Shown piece after piece: positions 4,838 through 44,615 of a DNA stretch of 64,000 nt. The stretch lies in contig NZ_CP042828.1 of NCBI RefSeq assembly GCF_008000995.1, positions 4,330,882 through 4,394,881 on the forward strand, given 5' to 3'. Position 1 is the first letter of the stretch; each line of letters starts with the position of its first letter. The notes under the pieces are model-generated. The model was not told where the DNA came from, did not search any database, and saw nothing but the letters and a program-made list of their open reading frames with translations. The translations under genes were made by a program, and so were the position numbers. Origin of the DNA: Ruania zhangjianzhongii (GTDB lineage: Bacteria; Actinomycetota; Actinomycetes; Actinomycetales; Beutenbergiaceae).

Positions 4838-5200
4838 GCCGGCTGAGTCGCGGGTGCCCGAGCCGCGCGGTTCGTCTGGCTCGGCCGCTTCCTCGCCGAG
4901 CGGGGCGTCCTCGTCGTCGGCATCCGGGGCGAGCCGGTCCTCTTCCTCACCGAGCAGGGCATCCTCATCGTCGGCATCCGAAGCGATCCGATCCTCCCAC
5001 CCGGTCTTCCCGCGCCCACGGGAGGCCAGCCACTCGGCCGAGGCACGGCGAAACTTGTCCAGCAGCACGTAGGAAAGCCCGGCGCCGACCAGCACCGCGG
5101 CAACCACCAGAAGCACTCCGCGCATCCCGGCCAGGTAGAGACCACCGCCCGCCGCGACGATCAACAGGATGCGAAGCAGGCTGTAGACGAGTACGGGCAT
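4796..5200 (-). CDS. DUF4229 small membrane protein
   Basis: 134-residue protein with two N-terminal hydrophobic helices (about residues 4-24 and 28-46), followed by LLDKFRRASAEWL and a long acidic tail. This is the layout of DUF4229 proteins, often found beside menA in actinobacteria. The tail holds an internal duplication: the segment EDRIASDADDEDALLGEE recurs as EDRLAPDADDEDAPLGEE, encoded by near-identical DNA. Function is unknown. A TACGCT -10-like box ends seven bases before the ATG, suggesting leaderless expression. The 3' end overlaps menA. Confidence 0.75.
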   Translation of the reverse strand: MPVLVYSLLRILLIVAAGGGLYLAGMRGVLLVVAAVLVGAGLSYVLLDKFRRASAEWLASRGRGKTGWEDRIASDADDEDALLGEEEDRLAPDADDEDAPLGEEAAEPDEPRGSGTRDSAGSDEQRDEHPKADG

Positions 5201-5207
5201 GCCACAC

Positions 5208-5217
5208 AGCGTAGGCT
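5208..5217. promoter_or_regulatory. Overlapping divergent -10 boxes
   Basis: The minus strand reads TACGCT at 5213-5208, seven bases before the DUF4229 start. The plus strand reads TAGGCT at 5212-5217, six bases before the PLDc_N protein start. The two boxes share two bases, so both genes appear to be leaderless from one compact bidirectional promoter. This is read from sequence; start sites are not known. Confidence 0.5.
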
Positions 5218-5223
5218 CAGGTC

Positions 5224-5679
5224 ATGAGGTTTCTCGTCGTCCTGGCAGTGATCGCGATCACGGTCTACTCCGTGATCGATTGCGCACGCGCCGAGGACCG
5301 GCAGCGCAGGGGGCTACCCGCGTGGCTGTGGGTAACCGTGATCGTCGTGCTCCCCGGAGTGGGTGGCCTCGTCTGGCTGCTGGTCAGCCGGACGGCACCG
5401 GACCCGCGGCCACGTGGATACGCGCGGCCGAGCCGCCCGGTGGCCCCGGACGACGATCCGGACTTTCTGGCTGGACTGGCGCGGCAGACTCCTCGGGAGA
5501 GCCCCCAGGCGCCCGCACCGGACGTCCCAGAGACACCGGAGGAGTCCGGTTCAGAGCGAGACCAGAGCAGTTCCGAGCGTGACGACCCCGACGAGGATCG
5601 CGAGCAGAGGGGCAAGCCGAACAGTGAGGATGGCGAGCAGCCGACCCGCGAGGACCGCGGCCGGCGCAGCCCGGAGTAG
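5224..5679 (+). CDS. PLDc_N domain membrane protein
   Basis: 151-residue protein with two hydrophobic helices (about 2-16 and 36-56) separated by DCARAEDRQRRGLPAW, and a WLLVSRTAPDPR segment after the second helix. This matches the PLDc_N (phospholipase D nuclease N-terminal) domain, a short membrane anchor found alone in many actinobacteria. No phospholipase HKD motif is present, so no catalytic activity is expected. The C-terminal two thirds are hydrophilic, acidic and low in complexity. Confidence 0.7.
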   Translation: MRFLVVLAVIAITVYSVIDCARAEDRQRRGLPAWLWVTVIVVLPGVGGLVWLLVSRTAPDPRPRGYARPSRPVAPDDDPDFLAGLARQTPRESPQAPAPDVPETPEESGSERDQSSSERDDPDEDREQRGKPNSEDGEQPTREDRGRRSPE

Positions 5680-5783
5680 TCGGTCTCCCTCAGCACTGCC
5701 GTAGGCGCGAGGGTCGGAGTCGTAGGATTGCAGGTCGACGCAGCCCAGTGATTGCGCGTTGAGCCGACGGTCGCCGCCTCGCA

Positions 5784-6284
5784 TCACTCCGTCGGCGAGT
5801 CGGTCACTGCCTCCTGAACCTTCTCGATCAACTCCTGGGTTTGGCGAAGGTCGGCCGCCCCTAGCTCGGTGCCCACCCGATCTGCCCACTGCTTCTGGGC
5901 GACTGCGATCTCCGCGATCGCTAGCCGCCCCTCGTCGGTCGGGCAGATCAGCTTGGCGCGCTTGTGCTCGGGGTTGGCCTGGTACTCGGCGAGCCCCTCG
6001 GCGACTAGCAGATCCGCGACGCGTTGGACGCTCTGCCGGGCCATGCCGCGACCTCTGGCGATCTGGGCGACGGTGGCCGGTGCGTCCATCGCCATGTCGA
6101 GCACCACCCAGCGGGCGAGTGAGAGCCCCGAGACCCCCGCGAGCTCTTCGCCGATAGCGCTCACCCGCCCGCCCAGTTGTGCGATCGCGACGACCAGGCC
6201 GGTGAACAGGTCCCCTTCTGACGTCCGGGGCGGACGCTCATTCTTCTTGACAGCGTGCTGTCGTTCTCCTAGGCTTCGTGACAT
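5784..6284 (-). CDS. MarR-family transcriptional regulator
   Basis: 166-residue winged-helix regulator. The recognition region reads [28 protein letters not shown] and the wing [17 protein letters not shown], typical of MarR. It is divergent from the epoxide hydrolase gene. Two related palindromes, one inside the first codons at 6249-6262 and one across the start at 6284-6299, indicate autorepression and control of the hydrolase. No alternative in-frame start exists before residue 60, so the overlap of operator and coding region seems real. Confidence 0.86.
6249..6262. promoter_or_regulatory. MarR operator half-copy 1
   Basis: The plus strand reads GACAGC-GT-GCTGTC, a perfect 6-bp inverted repeat with a 2-bp centre. 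It lies within the first 12 codons of the marR gene, so binding there would block elongation or initiation of that gene. Its sequence matches the second site at 6284-6299 in 12 of the 14 core bases. Confidence 0.6.
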
Positions 6285-6299
6285 GACAGCATACTGTCA
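6284..6299. promoter_or_regulatory. MarR operator copy 2
   Basis: TGACAG-CATA-CTGTCA is a perfect 6-bp inverted repeat overlapping the marR start codon, 43 bases ahead of the epoxide hydrolase start. Its centre is 36 bases from that of copy 1. Two matching sites between divergent genes support a MarR-controlled pair. Confidence 0.65.
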
Positions 6300-6341
6300 C
6301 ATGATTTCATCACCGTCATGACGACACACGGGAGCGACCCG

Positions 6342-7592
6342 ATGGACCAGCAGATGACCACTCACCACCCCGTCACCGACACCTCCGTGACCGACGACTC
6401 TGTCACCGACGTCGTGGCAGCCGACAGCCCCGCAGACACCTCGATCCGCCCGTTTCGGATCGACGTCCCACAGTCCCAACTGGACGACCTCGTCAGCCGG
6501 CTGGGGCGAACCCGCTGGCCCGACGAGCTCTCGGGCGCCGGGTGGGACCGCGGGGTCCCCCTCGCCTATCTGCGGGAGCTAGTCGAGTACTGGGCGACGT
6601 CCTACGACTGGCGGGCTCAAGAATCACGACTGAACACCCTCTCGCAGTTCAAGACCACCATCGACGGCCAGGACATCCATTTCCTGCATGTCCGTTCACC
6701 GGAGCCGGGAGCGCTGCCATTGATCGTGACCCACGGATGGCCCAGCTCGGTCGCCGAGTTCCAGGACATCGTCGGCCCGTTGTCCGACCCGAGAGCCAAT
6801 GGTGCGGACCCGGCAGATGCCTTCGATCTGGTGATTCCGGCACTACCAGGATTCGGCTTCTCCGGGCCGACCACCGCACCCGGATGGACCTGCGCCCGCA
6901 CGGCGCGGGCATGGGCAGTACTGATGGGGCGACTGGGTTATGACCGCTACGGCGCCCAAGGCGGCGACTTCGGCGCCCTCATCTCCCCGGAGCTCGGCCG
7001 GGTCGATGCTGAACACGTCGTCGGCGTGCACCTGAACGCCGCTTCGGTCGGCTTCATCCCGTGGGGAGGGGTCGACGCGCAGACGACGGCGGAGATGACG
7101 GATCGCGAACTCGCAACTCTCGGCCGGCTTGAGCAGTTTCTGGGCGAGGGAAACGCCTACTTCCAGGTCCAGGCCACCCGACCGCAAACCCTCGCATACG
7201 CCCTCACGGACTCGCCGGTCGGGCAGTTGGCCTGGATCGTCGACAAGTTCGCGGCCTGGACCCACACCACGACGGGCTGTCCGGAGGATGCGGTCGACCG
7301 GGACGCGATGCTGACCGCGGTCATGTTCTACTGGCTCACCGGAACTGCGGGCTCGGCGGCCCGGCTGTACTACGAGAACATGCACTCCACGCCCGAGTGG
7401 GGACAGGCGCCTTCGCCAACGCCGATCGGCGTGGCCAACTTCGCTGAAGACGTGGCATTCCGCCGATTCGGTGAACGAGGCAACAACATCGTGCACTGGA
7501 CCGACTTCGACACCGGCGGCCATTTCGCCGCCCTGGAGACTCCGGATCTGCTGGTGAAGGATGTCCGCACCTTCTTCCGCCCACTCCGCTGA
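6342..7592 (+). CDS. Epoxide hydrolase (EHN family, alpha/beta-hydrolase)
   Basis: 416-residue soluble hydrolase. The N-terminal EHN domain begins at [19 protein letters not shown] and contains TRWPDE. The core has the oxyanion motif HGWPSS, then QGGDFGA, whose Asp fits the epoxide hydrolase nucleophile, and a late [15 protein letters not shown] with the catalytic His. These enzymes open epoxides to diols; the natural substrate is unknown. The ATG at 6342 is chosen because GGGAG lies seven bases ahead, whereas the in-frame ATG at 6318 has none. The first 40 residues are rich in Thr, Asp and Val and are not part of the domain. Control by the divergent MarR is likely. Confidence 0.88.
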
Positions 7593-33350: not shown

Positions 33351-33423
33351 CACTGGGCTGCGGATAGGTACGGGCGGGGCCGGACAGGCGCTGGCGCACG
33401 GCCGCGAGAATCTCAAGGAGTGG

Positions 33424-33434
33424 GAAACGGTTTC
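33424..33434. promoter_or_regulatory. LacI-type operator 1
   Basis: GAAAC-G-GTTTC is a perfect palindrome of the LacI-family type, 33 bases before the -35 box of the Gfo/Idh/MocA gene. It resembles the sites at 33500-33513 and 44384-44395. Confidence 0.55.
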
Positions 33435-33466
33435 TAGTCGACCGGCCGCTTAGCGGCGCGGCTCAG

Positions 33467-33496: not shown

Positions 33497-33499
33497 ATC

Positions 33500-33513
33500 A
33501 GAAATCGGTTTCT
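33500..33513. promoter_or_regulatory. LacI-type operator 2
   Basis: AGAAA-TCGG-TTTCT lies where the transcript would begin, centred about 77 bases from operator 1. Two sites flanking one promoter would allow repression by looping. Confidence 0.55.
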
Positions 33514-33541
33514 CGCCGCTGACCGCTACCTTGTCGACAGG

Positions 33542-34930
33542 ATGCCCATGTCTGACCGTTCTGCCCGCCGCTACGCCGTCATCGGGACAGGCGGGCGGTC
33601 GCGGATGTACATCGACGCCCTCACCTCGAGCCACGCCGACCTGGGCGATATCGTCGCGTTCCTCGACCCGAACGAGGCGAGGATGGCCCACTACGACCGT
33701 TACCTCGCCGAGCGCGGCCGGAGCGCACCACCGCACTTCACCCCAGAGTCGTTCGAGCAGATGCTCAGCACCGCTCGCCCGGACGTGCTGATCGTCACGA
33801 GCAAGGACTCCACCCACGCCGACCACATCGTGGCCGGCCTGGATCACGGACTGGACGTCATCACCGAGAAGCCGATGACCATCGACGTCCCCAGCCTGGA
33901 ACGGATCGTCCGGGCCGCGCAGGGGTCCACCGGCAACCTGACCGTCACCTTCAACTACCGGTACTCCCCGCGCAACTCCACCGTGCGCCGGCTGATCGCC
34001 GAGGGCGCGATCGGCACGGTGACGTCGGTGCACTTCGAATGGTGCCTGGACACCGTCCACGGCGCCGACTACTTCCGCCGCTGGCACCGGGACAAGGACA
34101 GCTCGGGCGGCCTCGCCGTGCACAAGTCGACACACCACTTCGACCTGGTGAACTGGTGGCTGGACGACGTCCCCGCGACTGTGTTCGCACTCGGCGGCCT
34201 ACGCTTCTACGGCGCCGAGAACGCCGCATCCCGGGGCCTGGCCCCTCGCCCCACGCTGGGCCGGGACCTCGTCACCTCCGGCGACCCGTTCGCACTCGAC
34301 CTGGCCGCCGATCCTCAGCTCAAGGGCCTGTTCCTGGACGCCGAGCACCTGGACGGCTACCACCGCGACCAGGATGTCTTCGGACCGGGCATCACCATCG
34401 AGGACAACCTCTCGGTGACCGTGGGCTACCAGGGCGGTGCTGCGATGTCCTACTCGCTGAACGCCCACTCCCCCTGGGAGGGCTACCGGGTAGCGTTCAA
34501 CGGCACCGAGGGCCGGCTGGAGCTGGACGTCGTCGAACGCGGGGCGGTCAGCAGCGACCGCTCCACCAGCGGTTTGGGGGCCGGAGGCAAGGAGCGCCCG
34601 GTCCTCGACCCGAGTGCCACCGAGGCCGAGCGCACCGGACAACGTCTGCGACCGCACGGCTCACGCTTGATGCTGCAGCGGCAGTGGTCCCAGCCGGAGG
34701 AGGTCCAGATTCCCGAAGGCGCCGGCGCGCACGGCGGCGGGGACACGATGCTGCTGGACGACGTCTTCCGCGGTGGGGCGCAGGACCCGCTAGGCCGCCA
34801 GGCCGGCTATCACGACGGCGTCCGGTCGGTGATCATCGGCGCCGCCGTCAATGACTCGCTCGCCTCGGCCCGCGCGATCCAGCTCGCCGACTACGGCGAA
34901 CTGCTGCACTCCGCAGTCCTCAACCGTTAG
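33542..34930 (+). CDS. Gfo/Idh/MocA-family oxidoreductase
   Basis: 462-residue NAD(P)-dependent sugar oxidoreductase. The N-terminal Rossmann fold has RYAVIGTGGRSRMYIDAL, the family Lys is in ITEKPMTIDVPSLERIV, and DKDSSGGLAVHKSTHHFDLV carries the HxxD-type catalytic region. The C-terminal part is longer than average. Likely oxidises a sugar released or imported by neighbouring genes; the substrate is unknown. A second in-frame ATG lies two codons in. It is first in a plus-strand group with GH43 and the LacI-DUF6807 protein; DUF6807 genes commonly lie by such dehydrogenases, as I recall. Confidence 0.88.
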   Translation: MPMSDRSARRYAVIGTGGRSRMYIDALTSSHADLGDIVAFLDPNEARMAHYDRYLAERGRSAPPHFTPESFEQMLSTARPDVLIVTSKDSTHADHIVAGLDHGLDVITEKPMTIDVPSLERIVRAAQGSTGNLTVTFNYRYSPRNSTVRRLIAEGAIGTVTSVHFEWCLDTVHGADYFRRWHRDKDSSGGLAVHKSTHHFDLVNWWLDDVPATVFALGGLRFYGAENAASRGLAPRPTLGRDLVTSGDPFALDLAADPQLKGLFLDAEHLDGYHRDQDVFGPGITIEDNLSVTVGYQGGAAMSYSLNAHSPWEGYRVAFNGTEGRLELDVVERGAVSSDRSTSGLGAGGKERPVLDPSATEAERTGQRLRPHGSRLMLQRQWSQPEEVQIPEGAGAHGGGDTMLLDDVFRGGAQDPLGRQAGYHDGVRSVIIGAAVNDSLASARAIQLADYGELLHSAVLNR

Positions 34931-34985: not shown

Positions 34986-36551
34986 ATGGCGCTTCCTCTC
35001 CACCCCGATACCCCGGCCCACCCGGGTGAGTACCGCAACCCGGTCCTGGACGAAGACTGGCCGGACCCGGACGTGATCCGCTGGGGCGACGGCTACCTGA
35101 TGGTCGCCTCCAGCTTCAATCGTGCCCCGGGGCTGCCGTTGCTGCGCTCGTCGGACCTGGTCACCTGGGAGATCGTCGGCCACGCCCTGCCGGGTCTGCC
35201 GCCGGCCGAGCACTTCGCCCTCCCCCGGCACGGCGGCGGCGTCTGGGCGCCCTCGATCCGCGCCCACCGCGGCACGCTGTATCTCGTCTGGCCCGATCCG
35301 GACCATGGCCTGTACGTCTCCACGGCGACCGACCCGGCCGGGCCGTGGTCCATCCCGCACCTCGTGCTCGCCGGACAGGGGTTGATCGACCCCTGTCCAC
35401 TCTGGGACACCGACGGCCGCGCCTACCTGGTGCACGGCTGGGCGGGCAGCCGGTCCGGGGTGAAGAACCTGCTCACGGTGAGAGAGGTCAGTCCGGACCT
35501 GAGGTCGGTCCTCGCGCCGGGGCGCACGATCATCGACGGCGCAGCGTTGCCGGGCTACCGCACGCTCGAGGGGCCCAAGTTCTACTTGCGGGACGGCTGG
35601 TACTGGATCTTCGCCCCGGCCGGCGGTGTGGCGACCGGATGGCAGGCGGCCTTCCGGGCCCGGTCGGTGTACGGACCGTACGAGGGACGCACCGTGCTGG
35701 CCCAGGGCGCTGGACCGGTGAACGGCCCGCACCAGGGGGCCTGGGTCACCGATCCCGGTGGTGCCGACTGGTTCGTGCACTTCCAGGACCGCGGTGCCTA
35801 TGGGCGGGTCACCCATCTGCAGCCGATGCGCTGGGACTCCGGCGGCTGGCCGGTCCTCGGCAACGACGGCGAACCGGTGCTGAGCCACGCTGCCCCGGTG
35901 AACTCCACCCGCCAGGGGATGCGCGCCGTCGACGGTAGTGATGACTTCACCGGCACGCTGAACCGGAAGTGGCACTGGCAGGCCAACCCCGATCCAGCCT
36001 GGTCCATCCTCAGCGACGGGCACCTGGACCTGCAGCCGATACCGAACGACCTCGGCGACCTGCGCCAGCTACCCCAGGTGCTCAGCCAGCAGCTGCCCGC
36101 CGTGGCGTGCACCTTCCAGACCAGCCTTACCCTGAGCCGCACCACCGAGCCTGTCCGCACCGGGCTGGTGCTGCTCGGTCAGGAGTACGCGTGGATCGGA
36201 ATAGAGGTCCGCGAGGGCGGCGCCCACCTGGTCTGCCGCCGCTCCGGAACGGACCAGAGCGCCGACCGCCGCCGGGTGGAGGAGCCGGTCATCGACCAGG
36301 CGCTGCCCGCTGCTGCCACGGTGCGGCTCAGGCTCAGCAGCGACGGCGCCGGCGCCGTGCAGCTGGCCTGGTCGACCGGCGACACCGACTGGGCCTGGGT
36401 ACCGCAGACCTTCACCCCGGTCGAAGGCCGATGGATCGGCGCAGAGGTCGGGTTGTTCGCCACCGCACCACCAGGGGCCGGATCGCCGCCATTGGCGCGG
36501 TACGGTGCCTTCCAGATGAGAAGTACTCAGTCGACCCCCGGGGAGGCGTGA
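34986..36551 (+). CDS. Glycoside hydrolase family 43 protein
   Basis: 521-residue enzyme without a signal peptide, so cytoplasmic. The five-bladed propeller begins at YRNPVLDEDWPDPDVIRWGD, whose Asp is the general base. DPCPLWDTDGRAYLVHGWAG carries the pKa-modulating Asp, and LEGPKFYLRDGWYWIFAP the acid Glu. The C-terminal beta-sandwich typical of GH43 beta-xylosidases starts near residue 318 (DDFTGTLNRKWHWQANPDP). Beta-xylosidase or arabinofuranosidase activity on imported oligosaccharides is likely. The ATG has only a weak ribosome site. The stop shares one base with the next start (TGATG). Confidence 0.9.
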   Translation: MALPLHPDTPAHPGEYRNPVLDEDWPDPDVIRWGDGYLMVASSFNRAPGLPLLRSSDLVTWEIVGHALPGLPPAEHFALPRHGGGVWAPSIRAHRGTLYLVWPDPDHGLYVSTATDPAGPWSIPHLVLAGQGLIDPCPLWDTDGRAYLVHGWAGSRSGVKNLLTVREVSPDLRSVLAPGRTIIDGAALPGYRTLEGPKFYLRDGWYWIFAPAGGVATGWQAAFRARSVYGPYEGRTVLAQGAGPVNGPHQGAWVTDPGGADWFVHFQDRGAYGRVTHLQPMRWDSGGWPVLGNDGEPVLSHAAPVNSTRQGMRAVDGSDDFTGTLNRKWHWQANPDPAWSILSDGHLDLQPIPNDLGDLRQLPQVLSQQLPAVACTFQTSLTLSRTTEPVRTGLVLLGQEYAWIGIEVREGGAHLVCRRSGTDQSADRRRVEEPVIDQALPAAATVRLRLSSDGAGAVQLAWSTGDTDWAWVPQTFTPVEGRWIGAEVGLFATAPPGAGSPPLARYGAFQMRSTQSTPGEA

Positions 36552-38440
36552 TGAGCACCACCGGCGCGGCGACGATCGCCGAAGTAGCGCGGACGGCCGG
36601 GGTCTCCCGCGCCACCGTGTCCCGGGTGATGAACGGTCGCGCCACGGTGGACCCGGCGATGGCCGCCCGGGTGCGCAAGGCCGCCCGGGAGCTGAACTAC
36701 TCCCCCAGCACCGTGGCCCGCAGCCTGTCCCTGGGCCGCACCCAAACGGTGGCGCTGCTGGTGCCGGATCTGGGCAACCCGATGTTCCAACAGGTGCTGC
36801 GCGGGGCGAATCAGGCCGCCACCAAAGCCGGCTACCGGATCCTGGTCGCGGACAGCATCGAGGAACCGGAGCGGGAGGCCGAGCTCGCGATCGAGGCCCG
36901 CCGGCGCTGCGATGCACTGATTCTGTGCTCACCGCGGATGCCGGAAGACCAGCTGAACGAGGTGCTCACCGCGACCGCCCCCGTGGTGCTGGTCAATCGC
37001 GAACCGCACGGTAGCGACGTCCCGGCGCTCGCCGTGGACTACGCCACCGGCATCCGCACTCTCGCCGAGCACCTGATCGGACTCGGTCACCGCCGGTTCA
37101 TCTACCTGGCCGGTCCCGTGACCTCGGCCTCTAACACCGCCCGGCTGGAGGGACTGGCGCTGCTGCAGGCGGCCCACCCGGAGATCAGCATCCAGCACAG
37201 CCCCTGCGGGTCGATGATCGAGGACGGCTATGCCGCCCTCGAGGCGGTGCTCAACTCCCAGGCGACGGCGGTACTCGCCTTCAACGACCTCGTCGCCTTC
37301 GGTCTGCTCGGCAAGCTGAACGAGACCGGGGTGGGCGTACCGCGCGGCATCTCGGTGGCCGGGTTCGACGACATCGCCTTCGCCAAGTACGCCACCCCCG
37401 CGCTGACCACGATGTCCGTACCCCAGATGGACCTCGGCCGGCACGCCTGGGACCAGCTGCACCAGCTGCTGGTGGGTGAGGCGGAGAGTACCTCCCTGTT
37501 CTTCCGACCCCGGCTGATCGAGCGGGTCAGCACCGGACCCGCCCCGGTCCAGCCGACCACCGCACCGGCCGCGCCGGAGGCCGGCAGCCTGCCGCTGTGG
37601 TCCCGGGACGACGACGCCGGTGTGCTGCGTGCGGCCGGGTCCTCCCTGGCCCGGTACGAGCGCCACCCGGCGATGCCGGACGTGCACGCACCGCGGCCGT
37701 ACCTGCACCCGGTGCACACCTGGAACGGCACCCCGCTGACCGAGATCTCCCCGCTGGACCACCGGCACCAGTACGGCGTCTCCCTGGCGGTCGCCCAGGT
37801 GAACGGCTCCTCGTTCTGGGGCGGGCGCACCTACGTGCGCGATGCCGGGCCCACGCTGCTGCAGATCCACGGCACCCAGGTCAGCCACGACATGACCCTG
37901 GTCGGACCGGCGCTGACCGAGCAGCTCACCTGGTTCGGCCATGACGGTGCGGAGCTGCTCACCGAACGTCGGCGGCTGACCGCACGGACGTTGCCGGCCC
38001 AGCACGGCTGGGAGCTGACCTGGCAGTCCCTGCTGCACGCGAGCGCCGGTCCGGTGACCATCGACTCCCCGGCCACCCAGGGCCGTACCGGAGCCGGCTA
38101 CGGCGGGATCTTCTGGCGCTTCCCGGACGACGGCGAAGCCTCGATCACCTGCGCCGATGGCACCGGCGAAGAGGTCGCCCACGGGTCCACCTCACCGTGG
38201 CTGCTGCTCTCCCGGGCGGGCGACCGGCCCTGGACGGCACTGCTGCTCCAGCAGGGTGAGGTGCGCCCGTGGTTCGTGCGCTCCACCGATTTTCTCGGTG
38301 CCGGACCGGCGCTGGCCTGGTCCGAGTCGTTGCACATCCCCGCCGGGGACAACCTGGAGGTGGGGCTGCGGGCAGTGCTGTTCGACGGCGTGGTCGGCGC
38401 CGACGAGGTCACGGAGCTGATCGAGTCGGTCACCGAGTAG
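36551..38440 (+). CDS. LacI regulator fused to a DUF6807 (PmoA-family) domain
   Basis: 629-residue protein with two modules. Residues 1-325 are a complete LacI regulator: HTH in TIAEVARTAGVSRATVSRVM with hinge helix NYSPSTVARSLSLG, then the periplasmic-binding-like domain (TVALLVPDLGNPMFQQVLRG, VSVAGFDDIAF-like ISVAGFDDIAFAKYATP). A Pro/Ala linker (about 326-343) leads to a DUF6807 domain at about 345-628 with RPYLHPVHTWNGTPLTE, DHRHQYGVSLAVAQVNGSSF and GYGGIFWRFP. DUF6807 is normally a separate protein of unknown reaction. GGGGAGG precedes the ATG. It probably controls this operon and the opposing ABC operon through the GAAACCGGTTTC-like sites. Confidence 0.88.
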   Translation: MSTTGAATIAEVARTAGVSRATVSRVMNGRATVDPAMAARVRKAARELNYSPSTVARSLSLGRTQTVALLVPDLGNPMFQQVLRGANQAATKAGYRILVADSIEEPEREAELAIEARRRCDALILCSPRMPEDQLNEVLTATAPVVLVNREPHGSDVPALAVDYATGIRTLAEHLIGLGHRRFIYLAGPVTSASNTARLEGLALLQAAHPEISIQHSPCGSMIEDGYAALEAVLNSQATAVLAFNDLVAFGLLGKLNETGVGVPRGISVAGFDDIAFAKYATPALTTMSVPQMDLGRHAWDQLHQLLVGEAESTSLFFRPRLIERVSTGPAPVQPTTAPAAPEAGSLPLWSRDDDAGVLRAAGSSLARYERHPAMPDVHAPRPYLHPVHTWNGTPLTEISPLDHRHQYGVSLAVAQVNGSSFWGGRTYVRDAGPTLLQIHGTQVSHDMTLVGPALTEQLTWFGHDGAELLTERRRLTARTLPAQHGWELTWQSLLHASAGPVTIDSPATQGRTGAGYGGIFWRFPDDGEASITCADGTGEEVAHGSTSPWLLLSRAGDRPWTALLLQQGEVRPWFVRSTDFLGAGPALAWSESLHIPAGDNLEVGLRAVLFDGVVGADEVTELIESVTE

Positions 38441-38452
38441 GCTGATGGCCCG

Positions 38453-39385
38453 ATGACGGCTGTGCTGACTGCGCTGGGCACGATGACGCTCATCGCGTTG
38501 GCCGGCTGGCTGCTCGCGACCACGAGGGTGCTCGGCCCGGAGGCGCCCAAGGTGCTCGCCCGGGTGGTGTTCACCCTGTCCACCCCGAGCCTGCTGATCA
38601 CCACGATCGGCTCCGCGAACCTGGAGCTGCTGCTCACTCCTGCGGCCCTGAGCACCTGGGTGAGCACACTGATCGTGGCCGCGATCGCCGTCGTGATCTT
38701 TGCGTTCCTGCTGCGCACGGACCGGTCGGTGACCACGATCGGGGCCCTCTCGGCGAGCTATCTCAATGCCGGCAACCTGGGTATCCCGGTGGCCGTGTAC
38801 GTGCTCGGCGACGCGCTCGCCGTGGTGCCCACGATGCTGCTGCAGCTGCTCGTGCTCGCCCCGGTGGCTTTCGCCGTCGGGGACGCCCGCCCCGGGCGGC
38901 GACGCCGGGATGCCGTGCTCCGTGCGCTGCGCAGCCCGCTGACCGTCGCCGCGCTGCTCGGTCTGGCGCTGGCACTGGTTCCGTGGCAGTTGCCGACGGT
39001 GCTGTGGGAGCCGCTGCACGCACTTGCCGCCACTGCCGCTCCGCTCGCGCTGCTCACCCTGGGCATGTCCATGGTGCGCTCAGCACCGCCTCCGGGTGCC
39101 CCGAAGCCGGCTCTGGACCGGCGGCACTGGGCGGGGGTGCTGGTCGCCACCGCGATGCGCACGCTGGTGCACCCGGCGCTGACCTACCTGGTGGCGGACC
39201 TGGTGGGCGTACCGCCCGAGGCGAGGTTCGCCGTCGTGCTGATGGCCGCGCTACCGACCGCACAGAACGTGCTGGTCTACGCGATGCAGTTCGACGCCGG
39301 GCAACGCCTGGCCCGGGACGCTCAGGTGATCACCACGTTCGCCTCGCTGCCACTGATGGTGGCGGTGGTGGCGCTGCTGCACTGA
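38453..39385 (+). CDS. AEC-family transporter
   Basis: 310-residue membrane protein of the auxin efflux carrier family with about ten hydrophobic segments. Characteristic features: VVFTLSTPSLLITTIGSANL near the N-terminus, ASYLNAGNLGIPVAVYVLGD in the middle, and VLMAALPTAQNVLVYAMQFD at the end. AEC carriers move small organic acids or amino acids; substrate unknown. It starts 12 bases after the LacI-DUF6807 stop, with TAGGCT nearby as a possible own -10 box. It converges with the ABC operon. Confidence 0.88.
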   Translation: MTAVLTALGTMTLIALAGWLLATTRVLGPEAPKVLARVVFTLSTPSLLITTIGSANLELLLTPAALSTWVSTLIVAAIAVVIFAFLLRTDRSVTTIGALSASYLNAGNLGIPVAVYVLGDALAVVPTMLLQLLVLAPVAFAVGDARPGRRRRDAVLRALRSPLTVAALLGLALALVPWQLPTVLWEPLHALAATAAPLALLTLGMSMVRSAPPPGAPKPALDRRHWAGVLVATAMRTLVHPALTYLVADLVGVPPEARFAVVLMAALPTAQNVLVYAMQFDAGQRLARDAQVITTFASLPLMVAVVALLH

Positions 39386-39386
39386 G

Positions 39387-40301
39387 TCAGCCCTTCACCG
39401 AGCCGATCAGCGCGCCCTTGACGAAGTAGCGCTGGATGAACGGGTAGACGATCAGCATCGGCAACGTGGCCACGGCGATCACCGCCATCTTCACCGATTG
39501 CGCGGGCGGGACCACGTCCACCACCGAGGCGTCGGCATTCAGCCCGCTGGCCACGATCACGATCTGGCGCAGCAGCACCTGGATCGGCCAGAGCGTGGAG
39601 TCGTTGATGAACAGGATCGCCCACATGTAGGTGTTCCAGTACGCCACGGCGTAGAAGAGCCCGATGGTAGCGATCGAGGCGACCGAGAGGGGCAGCACGA
39701 TCCGGACGAACACCCCGAACTCGGAGCAACCGTCGATCCGCGCCGCCTCTTCCAGGCTGTCCGGGATGCTCTGGAAGAAGCTGCGCATGATCACGAAGTT
39801 GAAGGCATTCACCGTGAACGGCAGGATCAGCGACCACACCGAGTCCAGCAGACCCAGCCCGTTGACCACGATGAACAGCGGGATCATGCCGCCGCTGAAC
39901 AGCATCGTGAAGACCACCAGGAAGTTGATCACCCGGCGGCCGCGCAGGTATCGCTTGCCCAACGCGTAGGCCATCAGCGAGGTGACCAGCAGGCTGAGGA
40001 ACGTGCCCACCACGGTGACGAACATCGACACCCCCATGGCCCGGAAGATCGTCGGAGTGGACAGGACGTAGCGATAGGCGTCCAAGGTGAACTCGCGCGG
40101 GATGATCACGAACGCGCGGGTAGCCAGTTCACCGGGGTTGGCCAGCGAGCTACCGATCACGTGCAGGAACGGCAGCAGACAGACCAGCGCGAACGCGATC
40201 AGCACGGCACTGTTCACCACGGAGAAGACCCGTCGCCCGGAGGTCGGCTTGCGGAGCCGGTCCGGGCGGTAGGTGATGGTGGTCTCGGACCTGGCGGCCA
40301 T
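39387..40301 (-). CDS. Carbohydrate ABC transporter permease (LplC/YtcP-like)
   Basis: 304-residue inner-membrane subunit of a CUT1 sugar importer. Six hydrophobic helices are visible and the EAA loop reads SLEEAARIDGCSEFGVFVRI, where the cytoplasmic ATPase docks. It pairs with the LplB-like permease at the head of the operon. Its start overlaps the stop of the preceding membrane protein gene (ATGA). No ATP-binding subunit is encoded nearby, so a shared MsiK/MsmK-type ATPase from elsewhere is expected. Confidence 0.92.
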   Translation of the reverse strand: MAARSETTITYRPDRLRKPTSGRRVFSVVNSAVLIAFALVCLLPFLHVIGSSLANPGELATRAFVIIPREFTLDAYRYVLSTPTIFRAMGVSMFVTVVGTFLSLLVTSLMAYALGKRYLRGRRVINFLVVFTMLFSGGMIPLFIVVNGLGLLDSVWSLILPFTVNAFNFVIMRSFFQSIPDSLEEAARIDGCSEFGVFVRIVLPLSVASIATIGLFYAVAYWNTYMWAILFINDSTLWPIQVLLRQIVIVASGLNADASVVDVVPPAQSVKMAVIAVATLPMLIVYPFIQRYFVKGALIGSVKG

Positions 40302-40780
40302 CAGGAGCTCCCGTCCCGGACTGGGCGCGCAGCGAACAGGCCGGCGCCGAGGAAGAAGAAGAACGCGATCGGGTAGGCGATCAGCTGGCTGCCCAGCAGG
40401 CACACTGCACCGGCGGCGAGCAGCCACCAGCCCGGCGCCCTCCGCCAGGGCCGGCTGCGGGTGAGCAGCACGGCCACAGCAGCCAGGGCGAGCACGAGCA
40501 GCAGGGTGAAGCCGAACCAGGCGCCGAGCGTGCGACCCGCCTCGAACGCCTCGGCCGACGAGAGGTCCTCCGCCCCACCCAGCAGCACCGGACGGACCAC
40601 GTCGGCGAACGCAGCCTCGTCGAGCCGGTTCACCACCAGGGCGAAGCCGCCGAGGAACAGCGTGGCCAGCACCGCCCCGATACCCGTCAGCCACAGTTCG
40701 GCGGTTCGGCGGATCGAGGGCGCGGGTGGGGGTACAGCCTCGTCCTGCGGCCGGCGCCGCTGCTCAGCCCTGGCGCTCAT
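40301..40780 (-). CDS. Membrane protein in the ABC operon, unknown
   Basis: 159-residue protein with about three hydrophobic segments (about 30-50, 91-109, 120-145), the last reading AAGAVCLLGSQLIAYPIAFF. I do not recognise it. It overlaps the small ORF before it by 17 bases and the permease gene after it by one base, so it is translated with the importer. The ATG at 40780 is preferred over an in-frame ATG five codons upstream. It may be an accessory to the transporter; that is inference from position. Confidence 0.6.
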   Translation of the reverse strand: MSARAEQRRRPQDEAVPPPAPSIRRTAELWLTGIGAVLATLFLGGFALVVNRLDEAAFADVVRPVLLGGAEDLSSAEAFEAGRTLGAWFGFTLLLVLALAAVAVLLTRSRPWRRAPGWWLLAAGAVCLLGSQLIAYPIAFFFFLGAGLFAARPVRDGSS

Positions 40781-40928
40781 CGTCACCCTGCACATCCAGG
40801 CGGATCCGGTCGCAGGTGCTGATCACCACGTTCCGGGGGCCGCCGCCGGCCGCGGCTGCCTCGTCGATCGCTTGCTGCAGTCCGGCGGTGGCCGGTGCGA
40901 GGGAGGAGACGTTCTCGAGTGTGGGCAC
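40764..40928 (-). CDS. Small ORF in the ABC operon (54 residues)
   Basis: 54-residue ORF with GTG start and a good AGGAAGG about nine bases ahead. It reads PTLENVSSLAPATAGLQQAI then DEAAAAGGGPRNVVISTCDR. The first part resembles the start of right-handed beta-helix (pectate lyase/polygalacturonase type) enzymes, so it may be a truncated remnant or a small conserved protein. It lies between the solute-binding protein and the membrane protein and overlaps the latter by 17 bases. Confidence 0.5.
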   Translation of the reverse strand: MPTLENVSSLAPATAGLQQAIDEAAAAGGGPRNVVISTCDRIRLDVQGDDERQG

Positions 40929-40993
40929 GAATGGAAGCCTTCCTGATCCTGCCGCGAGCGCCGGCCGGAGGGTGACCGGCGCCCGCGGCGGGA

Positions 40994-42511
40994 TCAACCG
41001 TTGACGCTGTTGTAGGACTCAGTGAACTCGGTGATGATGTCGTCCAGGCCCTGGCTGCGGACCGACTCGATCGCTTCCTCGTAGCCGGCCATGTCCAGCT
41101 CGCCGACCATGTACCGGTTGAACGCGTCCATCACGGTCTGGTCGATCGTGGACCACTGTCGGTCGTAGGTCTCCGAGGACAGTGACTGGGCCGGGTTGGT
41201 GACGGCGTACTCGGCGCTCTCCGCCATCAGCTCGTCCGCCCGGTTCACGTACTCGTTGTCCGAGGTGAAGATGATGACGTTGTCGGCGGGCCGCGAGCTC
41301 GCGTATGGCTGCACCTCCTGCTCCCACTCGGTCTGGTTGATCCGGGAGTAGACACCCTCGCCGTCGACCTCGTAGTGCTCGCCCTCGATGCCCTGCGTCA
41401 TCAGGGTGAACGGTTCCTCATCGAGCAGGCTGTCGATGAAGCCGAGCACCTCGCGCAACTCTTCCTCGGTCTCCACCGTCTGGGTGTTGATGGCAAGCCA
41501 GCCGCCCATGCCGCCGTTGGTGTCGGAGACGATCCGCCGCTCCACGTCCCCGGCGGTCATGTCGTTGATCTGCGCCCAGTCCATCGGCGTCTCCGGATCG
41601 ATGCTCTCCGCCAGTTCGAGGTAGCCACGGGCCTCGAACAGTCCGGTGATCACGATGCCGCCCTCGCCACGGGCGATGGCATCGCGCTGGTTGTCCTTCT
41701 GCATCGTGACGAACTCCTGGTTCATCCCGCCGCTCTCATACACGCTGCGGTACCAGGCCATCGCCTCCTTCCAGGCGTCGGTGGTGTATGCAGGCACCAC
41801 GTTCCCCGCGTCGTCGAGCTCGAACCGGTCCCCGGCACCGAAGTAGCCGGCGATGATCCGGAAGGACAGCGAGAAGCTCTCCGACCGCTCGATGAAGCCG
41901 GTGGTGTCATCCTCGCCGTTGCCGTCCGGGTCGTCCTCGGCGAACGCTTGAGCGACCTCGGCAAGCTCGGCGAGGGTGTGTGGGGTCTCCAGGCCGAGGT
42001 TGTCCAGCCAGTCCTGGCGCACCAGGACGCCATATCGGGCGATCGGCTTCTGGAACGGGATCCCGTACAAGTGGCCGTCCAGGCGGGCCACGTCGATCGT
42101 GGCCTGCGGGATCTGGGAGAGATTGTCGAACTCGGACAGATAAGGCTCCACGTCCCAGAACATTCCCGACGTCAGCGCGTTGCGCACCGTGGTGGAGTCG
42201 ATCTGGGTCAGGGAGGTGATGTGTCCGCAAGCGTGCCGGAGGCGAGCGCCGCGTTGATCTTCTCCTCCTTGGATGCGTCCGGCACCCACTGCATCTCGAA
42301 GTCGGTGCCGGTGTAGTCCACCAGTGCCTCGTGGATCGGACCATTCGGGTCGGGGGTGGTGGGCGTGTGCAACATCGACATCCCAGGTAATTGGGCCGTC
42401 ATCACCGCCGTCTCCTCCCTCGGTGCCGCCGTCGCTTCCGCAGGCGGTCAGGGCAAGGGCGGTGGCAAGTACGGCTGCAGTGCCGCCCGCCAGTCTCTTC
42501 CGGGTATTCAT
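40994..42511 (-). CDS. Sugar ABC solute-binding lipoprotein with compensated frameshifts
   Basis: 505-residue LplA-like family 1 solute-binding protein. A signal peptide ends in the lipobox ALTACGSDGG. The mature protein captures a sugar for the two permeases. Residues around 46-96 read as nonsense (DVAHAHHPRPEWSDPRGTGG), while the minus-strand +1 frame at 42405-42208 encodes the expected MLHTPTTPDPNGPIHEALVD and KEEKINAALASGTLAD. Two bases seem lost near 42375 and one near 42221, together restoring the frame. The rest (SGMFWDVEPYLSEFDN, GRIFLR-free) looks intact. The start overlaps the YesL stop. Confidence 0.85.
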   Translation of the reverse strand: MNTRKRLAGGTAAVLATALALTACGSDGGTEGGDGGDDGPITWDVDVAHAHHPRPEWSDPRGTGGLHRHRLRDAVGAGRIQGGEDQRGARLRHACGHITSLTQIDSTTVRNALTSGMFWDVEPYLSEFDNLSQIPQATIDVARLDGHLYGIPFQKPIARYGVLVRQDWLDNLGLETPHTLAELAEVAQAFAEDDPDGNGEDDTTGFIERSESFSLSFRIIAGYFGAGDRFELDDAGNVVPAYTTDAWKEAMAWYRSVYESGGMNQEFVTMQKDNQRDAIARGEGGIVITGLFEARGYLELAESIDPETPMDWAQINDMTAGDVERRIVSDTNGGMGGWLAINTQTVETEEELREVLGFIDSLLDEEPFTLMTQGIEGEHYEVDGEGVYSRINQTEWEQEVQPYASSRPADNVIIFTSDNEYVNRADELMAESAEYAVTNPAQSLSSETYDRQWSTIDQTVMDAFNRYMVGELDMAGYEEAIESVRSQGLDDIITEFTESYNSVNG

Positions 42512-43296
42512 ACTGCGCTTCCTTTCTGAAGGTGCCGCTCGGCGATACCCGGTCGATCCGGGTGTGCGAGGTCAGCGTGTGCGTCGTTGCGCTCGGCTCG
42601 GGCAGAAATCTCGGTGCGGGCAGGGTTTGCGGTGCCAACAGGGCCCGCGGTGCCGCCGCCGGTGGAGCCGTTCGCCGCGCTGGCTTCTTCGGCGTCCACC
42701 TCGGCAAGCTGGCGGAAGACGCCGCGCACGATCAAGCCGACGACGGTCATCGGCAGGGCGATCCCGACCACTGGGAGCAGCGGCAGCGCGAAGCGGTACA
42801 TCACCCAGTACAGGGCGGCTACTGCCGTGGTGCCGATGATCGTCCAGTGCAACGACCCCACCCCGAGGAGCAGTGCGGCACTGAGCGTGGAGCGGATCGT
42901 GGTGACGTCCAGGGCCGCAAGCACGAAGTACACGTACGCGGCGATCACGGCCAGCACCACCAGAGCCAGCAGGTTCGCCACCCGCAGGTACCAGTTCGCT
43001 GCGCTGAGCAGATTCACACCGATCACCACCGCGACCGCGAGCAGCACCCAGCTGACCAGCACCGGGCGCCAACGCAGCTCGGTGGCGTAACGCCGGAACG
43101 TGGCTGCTGCCGGTGGGAGTTCGCCGAGACGGAACCAGCGGTCGACGTACTTGGCGAATGCGTAGGTCGCGGGCCCGACGCCGAAGATGCCGAGGCCGAC
43201 CACCGTGGTGGCGACCCAGAGCAGGTTGAGCCAGAGCAGCCGGTAGAAGCCGGACAGCAGATGGTTGAGTCGGACCAGACCTTCGTAGGACAGCAT
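42508..43296 (-). CDS. YesL/DUF624 membrane protein
   Basis: 262-residue membrane protein with five hydrophobic helices and the family opening LNHLLSGFYRLLWLNLLWVA, then TYAFAKYVDRWFRLGE. YesL (DUF624) proteins accompany LplABC/YtcQ-type sugar importers and are needed in some of them, but their exact role is unknown. A variable, disordered tail of about 60 residues ends the protein. It overlaps the solute-binding protein start by four bases and follows the first permease by 26 bases. Confidence 0.86.
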   Translation of the reverse strand: MLSYEGLVRLNHLLSGFYRLLWLNLLWVATTVVGLGIFGVGPATYAFAKYVDRWFRLGELPPAAATFRRYATELRWRPVLVSWVLLAVAVVIGVNLLSAANWYLRVANLLALVVLAVIAAYVYFVLAALDVTTIRSTLSAALLLGVGSLHWTIIGTTAVAALYWVMYRFALPLLPVVGIALPMTVVGLIVRGVFRQLAEVDAEEASAANGSTGGGTAGPVGTANPARTEISARAERNDAHADLAHPDRPGIAERHLQKGSAV

Positions 43297-43322
43297 GGGA
43301 ACACCTCCTCCGCCTCGGCGGG

Positions 43323-44297
43323 CTAGTAGACGCCTTCTTCGCCGAACTTCTTCGCCATCCGGTTCGCGATGACCACGAGGAGCAGACCGACCAGCCCCTT
43401 GAACAGGCCGACGGCGGTGGCGTAGCTGAGCTGACCGTTCTGGATTCCCGCCGTGTACACGTAGGTGTCGAAGATCTCGGCCACCTCGCGGTTGAGGGAG
43501 TTCAGCAGCAGGAACATGTGCTCGAAGCCGAGCTCGAGGAAGTCACCGATGGCGAGGATGAACATCACCACGATGGTGGGCCGGATGGCCGGCAGGGTGA
43601 TGTGCCAGGTCTGCCGCCAGCGGCCGGCGCCGTCCAGTTCGGCTGCCTCGTACAGGCTCACATCCACCGCGGTGAGGGCGGCCAGGTAGATGATCGTGCC
43701 CCAGCCGGCAGACTTCCAGACGTTCTGGAACACATACATCGGGCGCAGCCAGTCGGGGTCGGTGAGGAAGCCGATCTCCTCCCCGCCGGCACCTGCGATG
43801 AGGTTGTTGATCGCACCGCCATCGGTGGTGAGCAGGACGTAAAACAGGGAGACCACGATCACCCAGGACATGAAGTGCGGCAGGTACACGATCGACTGCA
43901 GGGAGCGCTTGAACACCCGGGACCGGATCTCGTTCAGCATCAGCGCGAGGATGATCGGTACCGGGAACGAGAACACCAGCAGCAGCAGGGACACGATCAG
44001 GGTGTTCCCCAGCAGCATGAAGAACGTGTCCTCGGTGAACAGCCGCACGAAGTGGTCGAAGCCCACCCACGGGCTCTCCGCCACACCCAGGAACGGCATG
44101 TAGTCCTGGAAGGCGATGACCAGGCCGCCCATCGGCATGTACTTGAACAACAGGAAGTACACGATCCCCGGCAGCGCCATCAGGTACAGCGTCTTGTGCC
44201 GCCAGATGGAGGCGGCACGGTGCCTGGCCGGCCGCACCGGCGCATCGCTCGGTGGCGGGGCCGCCCCCTGGCGCCGAATGAGCGGAGGTGCGCTCAT
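43323..44297 (-). CDS. Carbohydrate ABC transporter permease (LplB-like)
   Basis: 324-residue inner-membrane subunit of the same CUT1 importer, first gene of the operon. The EAA motif reads SLYEAAELDGAGRWRQTWHI and six helices are visible, beginning at LYLMALPGIVYFLLFKYMPM. LplB-type permeases belong to the complex-saccharide group. AAGGTG lies ahead of the ATG. The promoter at 44407-44436 and the LacI-type site at 44384-44395 are just upstream, so the operon is likely repressed with the GH43 operon. Confidence 0.92.
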   Translation of the reverse strand: MSAPPLIRRQGAAPPPSDAPVRPARHRAASIWRHKTLYLMALPGIVYFLLFKYMPMGGLVIAFQDYMPFLGVAESPWVGFDHFVRLFTEDTFFMLLGNTLIVSLLLLVFSFPVPIILALMLNEIRSRVFKRSLQSIVYLPHFMSWVIVVSLFYVLLTTDGGAINNLIAGAGGEEIGFLTDPDWLRPMYVFQNVWKSAGWGTIIYLAALTAVDVSLYEAAELDGAGRWRQTWHITLPAIRPTIVVMFILAIGDFLELGFEHMFLLLNSLNREVAEIFDTYVYTAGIQNGQLSYATAVGLFKGLVGLLLVVIANRMAKKFGEEGVY

Positions 44298-44383
44298 CGC
44301 GTCGTCACCTTCGATGTTGTCGTCGCCCGCATTGGCGTTAGTCCCTCGCTCCGCATCGAGCCGATTGGTCAGGGAATCCGGCA

Positions 44384-44436
44384 GGAACCGGTTTCTCAGT
44401 GGAGTGAGAGTACAACAGAGTCACGACACTTAGCAA
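44384..44436 (-). promoter_or_regulatory. ABC operon promoter with LacI-type operator
   Basis: On the minus strand, TTGCTA (44436-44431) and TACTCT (44412-44407) are 18 bases apart. The palindrome GAAACC-GGTTCC (44395-44384) follows the -10 box by about 11 bases, over the transcript start. One arm base differs from the perfect GAAACC/GGTTTC. A weaker similar site, GAGACCGGTTACTC, lies at 44532-44545. The rest of 44298-44766 holds only the hairpin at 44616. Confidence 0.6.
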
Positions 44437-44615
44437 CGGGGTGAGTCTTTCCAGCGAATCACCATCAATTCACCCGATGTCATCGGAGCTCTCGGCATCA
44501 CCATTCCCCTGCGAATGGATCCATTTTTCGGGAGACCGGTTACTCACCGGCCCGTCCGGAAGCGAGTGCCGCCAAGGGATCCCGGGGTAGCCCACTCACG
44601 CCCCACTGCGCCCAT

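Follow-up and report, generated by a model that had tools for sequence, protein, structure and literature searches.

Our analysis of a 64,000-nucleotide stretch of the Ruania zhangjianzhongii genome (contig NZ_CP042828.1, positions 4,330,882 to 4,394,881; hereafter the window) centers on one gene whose product, as shown by its sequence, consists of an intact LacI repressor followed by an intact C-terminal DUF6807 domain, an arrangement kept across many actinobacteria. We propose, at about even odds, that this protein is a trigger-enzyme-like regulator in which a local repressor of a sugar operon is linked to a sugar-modifying or sugar-binding domain belonging to that operon, with a putative coupling of the two halves. 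DUF6807 (PF14100) bears the older name PmoA-like, which does not denote methane monooxygenase, and the family of the true PmoA (particulate methane monooxygenase subunit A) was not present among the eight Pfam matches of the protein. The gene and its parts, all on the plus strand, are as follows.

36551..38440, plus strand: LacI-DUF6807 fusion gene (629 amino acids), an open frame with orthologues over its full length
36572..36709, plus strand: LacI helix-turn-helix, residues 8-53, with the recognition helix VSRATVSRVMN (PF00356)
36743..37534, plus strand: periplasmic-binding-protein-like sensor core, residues 65-328 (PF00532 at 65-308, PF13377 at 172-328)
37550..37573, plus strand: disordered part of the linker, residues 334-341 (pLDDT <50 in the full-length model)
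37625..38422, plus strand: DUF6807 domain, residues 359-624, with a galactose-mutarotase-like fold (PF14100 and model)
37769..37771, plus strand: codon of Gln407, which is His in stand-alone DUF6807 (residue comparison)

The first-pass annotation of the window had claimed a complete LacI repressor joined to a complete DUF6807 domain, and the Pfam matches agree with it on both halves. The helix-turn-helix scored 57.2 bits (cut-off 27, E 1.4e-15), the sensor core was recognized by Peripla_BP_3 (residues 172-328, 99.8 bits, E 2.4e-28) and Peripla_BP_1 (79.4 bits), and DUF6807 reached 194.7 bits (cut-off 27, E 2.9e-57) over profile positions 4-269 of 270. In addition, the three motifs cited for the domain (RPYLHPV, DHRHQYGVS and VNGSSFW) were all found in the translation, and the outcomes named beforehand as speaking against the fusion did not occur, as DUF6807 matched and the uninterrupted full-length frame was also found in two other Ruania genomes (G004, 93% identity; G002, 85% identity). 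NCBIfam returned only LacI-type equivalogs below their cut-offs, such as RbsR at residues 7-329, and AlphaFold, run on the alignment of the fusions, modelled both the LacI and the DUF6807 part (mean pLDDT 82.1, pTM 0.51).

A profile search of genome contigs with the alignment of the fused DUF6807 domains identified 199 relatives, the best 80 of which were kept. The LacI fusion was found at 71 of these 80 loci, in 18 actinobacterial genera including Promicromonospora, Kribbella, Cellulomonas, Agromyces and Brachybacterium, a proportion that is biased towards fusions because fused domains served as the query. The family sample of 24 genomes contained 13 fused genes in 12 genomes, and in the unbiased samples the fusion was detected in 33 of 248 genomes of the order, in at least 10 of 394 genomes of the class and, among the loci opened, in 3 of 396 genomes of the phylum; the best 30 loci of the class sample comprised 10 fused and 20 unfused ones. 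The fusion itself has held up, while its status as a one-off has not, since it represents a widespread conserved architecture of Actinomycetota. One close relative of a Sanguibacter fusion (L190 in genome G592) has its LacI and DUF6807 parts in different frames where they meet, and was counted as unfused because of this frame break. Sanguibacter inulinus (L119) provides the only one of the 71 fusion loci with an additional DUF6807 gene, separate from the fusion and immediately downstream of it; a gene of the Gfo/Idh/MocA oxidoreductase family (Gfo) comes next. A second kind of DUF6807 fusion, in which the domain forms the C-terminus of such an oxidoreductase, was seen in G008 (L023) and G280 (L063).

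Predicted operators strongly support a role of the LacI half as a binder of palindromic DNA with the core AACCGGTT. A first scan of the window for strict palindromes had yielded none near the fusion; the motif was derived from relatives, where this core recurs in palindromes ahead of several fusion operons, and was then recognized in the window, each site departing from it by one mismatch. The operator-like sites, given without strand, are listed here.

33499..33514: palindrome CAGAAATCGGTTTCTC, score 24.1, upstream of the Gfo/GH43/LacI-DUF6807 operon
33421..33436: weaker site, score 11.7, 78 bp further upstream of the site at 33499
44382..44397: palindrome CAGGAACCGGTTTCTC, score 25.2, upstream of the ABC transporter operon
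44530..44545: weaker site, score 13.9, before the ABC importer operon

Since a strong and a weak site precede both its own operon and the ABC importer operon, the LacI half is strongly supported as a dedicated, autoregulating local repressor of a predicted plant-sugar cluster, the sugar of which is probably a pentoside. A 12-base form of the motif, with up to two mismatches allowed, was counted five times in the window as compared to 1.03 expected occurrences, a number reached in none of 100 shuffles, and the whole 5.1-Mb genome contains the consensus SRGNAAYCGGTTNCYS at just two places, each upstream of an operon in the sugar cluster. With a scoring matrix built from eight sites and a threshold of 15, the motif preceded 45 of the 61 fusion operons outside the matrix set, compared to 24 of 225 other operon starts at these loci, a number that may include genuine members of the regulon. 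At a score of at least 11 it was found at 12 of 20 regulator operons among the first loci and at 56 of the 71 genome-scan loci. Its occurrence followed the recognition helix, with the motif present at 53 of 56 operons of regulators carrying the residues RA, at none of 10 with QA, PA or VA (L163, a QA case, scored 14.9, just below the threshold) and at all four with RS, QS or SA, one contig-end case being uninformative. The other two Ruania fusions (L079, L080) share the operator layout of the window. A palindromic promoter operator that tracks the recognition helix, judged here from sequence, is in line with membership in the LacI family, whose sugar-operon repressors the protein resembles in its helix-turn-helix, hinge helix, sensor core, central-CG palindromic operator and local sugar regulon. 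By analogy with this family the LacI part would repress its targets and be relieved by an effector. Unlike such repressors, the fusion has approximately 280 further residues that form DUF6807; in the accessible part of a survey of LacI-family regulons, members are defined by two domains and the words 'fused' and 'fusion' never occur (PMC4052901).

Two genes precede the fusion in its operon.

33548..34930, plus strand: Gfo/Idh/MocA-family oxidoreductase gene (Pfam)
34986..36551, plus strand: GH43 glycosidase gene with a GH43_C2 domain (Pfam)

The stop codon of the GH43 gene shares one base with the start codon of the fusion gene, and the Gfo gene, two genes upstream, is the one that had been reported nearby from the sequence alone. 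The cluster also holds an FGGY kinase and a xylose-isomerase-like protein (Pfam), which we take to be a xylulokinase and a xylose isomerase, respectively. Gfo or GH43 was found at 57 of the 71 fusion loci, adjacent on the same strand at 55, with Gfo directly following the fusion gene at 35 loci and GH43 directly preceding it at 19, and transporter genes were present at 54. Stand-alone DUF6807 had been described as a neighbor of Gfo/Idh/MocA genes, and indeed Gfo lies directly after DUF6807 at seven of nine unfused loci. Because the same Gfo-side context is found at fused and unfused loci, the fused domain occupies the position of the stand-alone one, and the gene context supports a putative activity of DUF6807 in the pathway that the fusion regulates.

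The modelled DUF6807 domain adopts a galactose-mutarotase-like fold, a soluble beta sandwich of the supersandwich type, with 7-10% identity to galactose mutarotase-like structures (PDB 3k25, 3q1n, 3dcd). Calling DUF6807 itself a mutarotase was rejected, as a profile alignment (hhalign) against 20 mutarotases, with a probability of 0.6% over 24 columns, did not locate their catalytic His/Glu pair; no Aldose_epim (PF01263) match was present among the Pfam matches to the fusion protein, and a search by sequence found no relative of DUF6807 with a solved structure. Like stand-alone DUF6807 proteins, the fusion contains the full-length domain, and it differs from them in the attached DNA-binding regulator. 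Of the 38 columns with a conservation of 90% or more among 28 stand-alone rows, the window domain keeps 36. Unlike stand-alone members, it carries Gln at position 407 and Asp at position 505; position 407 is His in all 28 of these rows and in 33 of 33 in a larger set. With Gln in place of this invariant His, catalysis in the window protein appears less certain than in most other fusions. The replacement was found in 11 of 11 fusions of the Ruania/Occultella clade, while eleven other conserved positions are retained in all 76 fusions compared, and the DUF6807 domain is under purifying selection.

Fold, residues and neighbors together suggest that DUF6807 may act on one of the sugars or keto-sugars in the Gfo/GH43 pathway. 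In this view the domain would be the sugar-modifying component that the operon itself supplies, and it would share a series of metabolites with the Gfo/Idh/MocA enzyme. In the absence of the sugar, the fusion protein would repress; upon arrival of the sugar the sensor core would release the operator, and the fusion would be produced along with its operon. The DUF6807 part would then convert the pathway sugar in most lineages, and in the window's clade, with Gln for His407, would perhaps bind it instead. Joining the halves would tie the dose and position of the repressor to DUF6807 activity, as in trigger enzymes, such as the enzyme-repressor proteins PutA, BirA and NadR of E. coli (PMC8249747). 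The fusion shares with these proteins an enzyme-like domain and a DNA-binding regulator in one chain that controls its own pathway, and it differs in that the LacI repressor is retained whole, sensor core included, and the enzyme activity is predicted. Because such proteins are already known, the phrase 'a new kind of regulator', used when the fusion was first noticed, is too strong. No paper on the function of DUF6807 or on a LacI-DUF6807 fusion was found in the open-access literature searched, and the elements that are new here comprise the conserved operator with its genome places, the mutarotase-like model, the clade-specific Gln407, the domain-less orthologues and the purifying selection. 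Through a repressor whose operator is predicted and whose regulon is defined, the DUF6807 family gains a pathway and a genetically testable role.

Several observations weigh against the proposed reading. The full-length model leaves the relative orientation of the domains unpredicted (pTM 0.51), and the catalytic His/Glu of true mutarotases could not be matched in DUF6807. Gln replaces His407 in 12 of 76 fusions, that of the window among them (the remaining 64 keep His407), Asp403 is lost in four fusions, all of the Ruania/Occultella clade, and His386 likewise in four. Moreover, neither Gfo nor GH43 was found at 14 of the 71 fusion loci, the Occultella loci lack Gfo and one of them also GH43, and a reversed control pattern of the operator consensus occurs at one chance place in the genome. 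Finally, many close unfused LacI relatives exist, and DUF6807 is dispensable, as five Ruania genomes have syntenic orthologues without the domain.

The plainest rival, which we consider somewhat unlikely, is a fusion of convenience in which LacI and DUF6807, as coupled neighbor genes, became one frame with a fixed ratio and without influence on each other. Split forms are consistent with such an origin: in Jiangella endophytica (L166; L283 is apparently the same species) a LacI gene at 4877-5965 shares its last four bases with a DUF6807 gene at 5962-6795, and separate genes with a four-base overlap likewise occur in G729 (L285) and G280 (L226/L301). The linker, moreover, is disordered and varies among fusions. 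The domain-less orthologues of Ruania G001, G003, G005, G006 and G007 (L093-L097) point in the same direction, as these LacI proteins of 334-359 amino acids, with 71-77% identity to the LacI half of the window, keep the same operator and nearly all invariant sensor residues. They are encoded between a glycerol kinase and a PF03547 transporter, and a search of the five 19.5-kb syntenic loci with hidden Markov models in all six frames found none of Gfo, GH43 and DUF6807; G003 and G006 carry a divergent fusion elsewhere in the genome. A first LacI tree of 103 rows, which left out ten duplicate loci and the minus-strand open reading frame of L154, had suggested a strictly single fused clade, a signal that we discount because few close unfused LacIs were included. 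It was overturned by an enlarged tree of 137 rows (96 fused and 41 unfused; nine distant LacIs and the repeats L203-L208 were left out) with at least five changes between the fused and unfused states, which again fits a fusion of convenience. In the DUF6807 tree, 76 fused and five stand-alone domains form one group of 81 rows (support 85), and a single fusion event followed by losses and splits is possible, though not proven. However, an enzyme bound to a normally scarce repressor would be an odd economy, the fusion has lasted in 18 genera, and the domain of the window's clade is under selection despite its changed invariant His. Fused, split and domain-less relatives, some of them in one genus at one locus, constitute a natural series that bears on what an enzyme-like domain contributes to a bacterial repressor. 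In the class sample, eight loci with stand-alone DUF6807 (L284, L288-L290, L292, L294, L295, L299) showed a partial LacI match within approximately 1.5 kb of the DUF6807 gene, either truncated at the end of the locus or weak (41-60 bits).

A bolder version of the coupled repressor, which we regard as unlikely, is a self-resetting one, in which DUF6807 would convert the inducer, or its keto form made by the Gfo/Idh/MocA enzyme, that is sensed by the LacI core of the same chain, so that shut-off would be set by catalysis inside the regulator and the Gln407 clade (Ruania/Occultella) would have been retuned from catalysis to sensing. Regulators often use an enzyme-like fold as a sensor, and DUF6807 might accordingly be a second, non-catalytic sugar sensor or an assembly domain, at least in the Ruania/Occultella clade. 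The uniform change of His407 to Gln in this clade and its losses of Asp403 under continued purifying selection favor this explanation, and for the window's own clade a sensor instead of a catalyst is a fair alternative; yet most fusions keep His407 and all of them the eleven other conserved positions, and we find this explanation quite unlikely. An artefact, in which an assembly error or a lost stop codon fused two genes, has a negligible probability and was rejected, since split versions and the halves of L190 in different frames do occur elsewhere but the same frame is present in independent Ruania species and in 17 further genera.

The genes downstream of the fusion encode transport functions.

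38453..39385, plus strand: membrane transport protein gene (PF03547), directly downstream of the fusion and part of its operon (Pfam)
39387..44297, minus strand: ABC sugar importer operon (Pfam, homology, gene clusters)
39387-40301 and 43323-44297, minus strand: importer permeases (PF00528; Pfam)
42508-43296, minus strand: DUF624 gene of the importer operon (Pfam)
40994-42511, minus strand: substrate-binding-protein-like gene of the importer operon (by homology; its product has no Pfam match)

Within the last of these genes approximately 59 residues (the region 36-96) are encoded in a different frame (42223-42399) than the remainder, and therefore two compensating frameshifts appear to have left the reading frame open with a scrambled segment.
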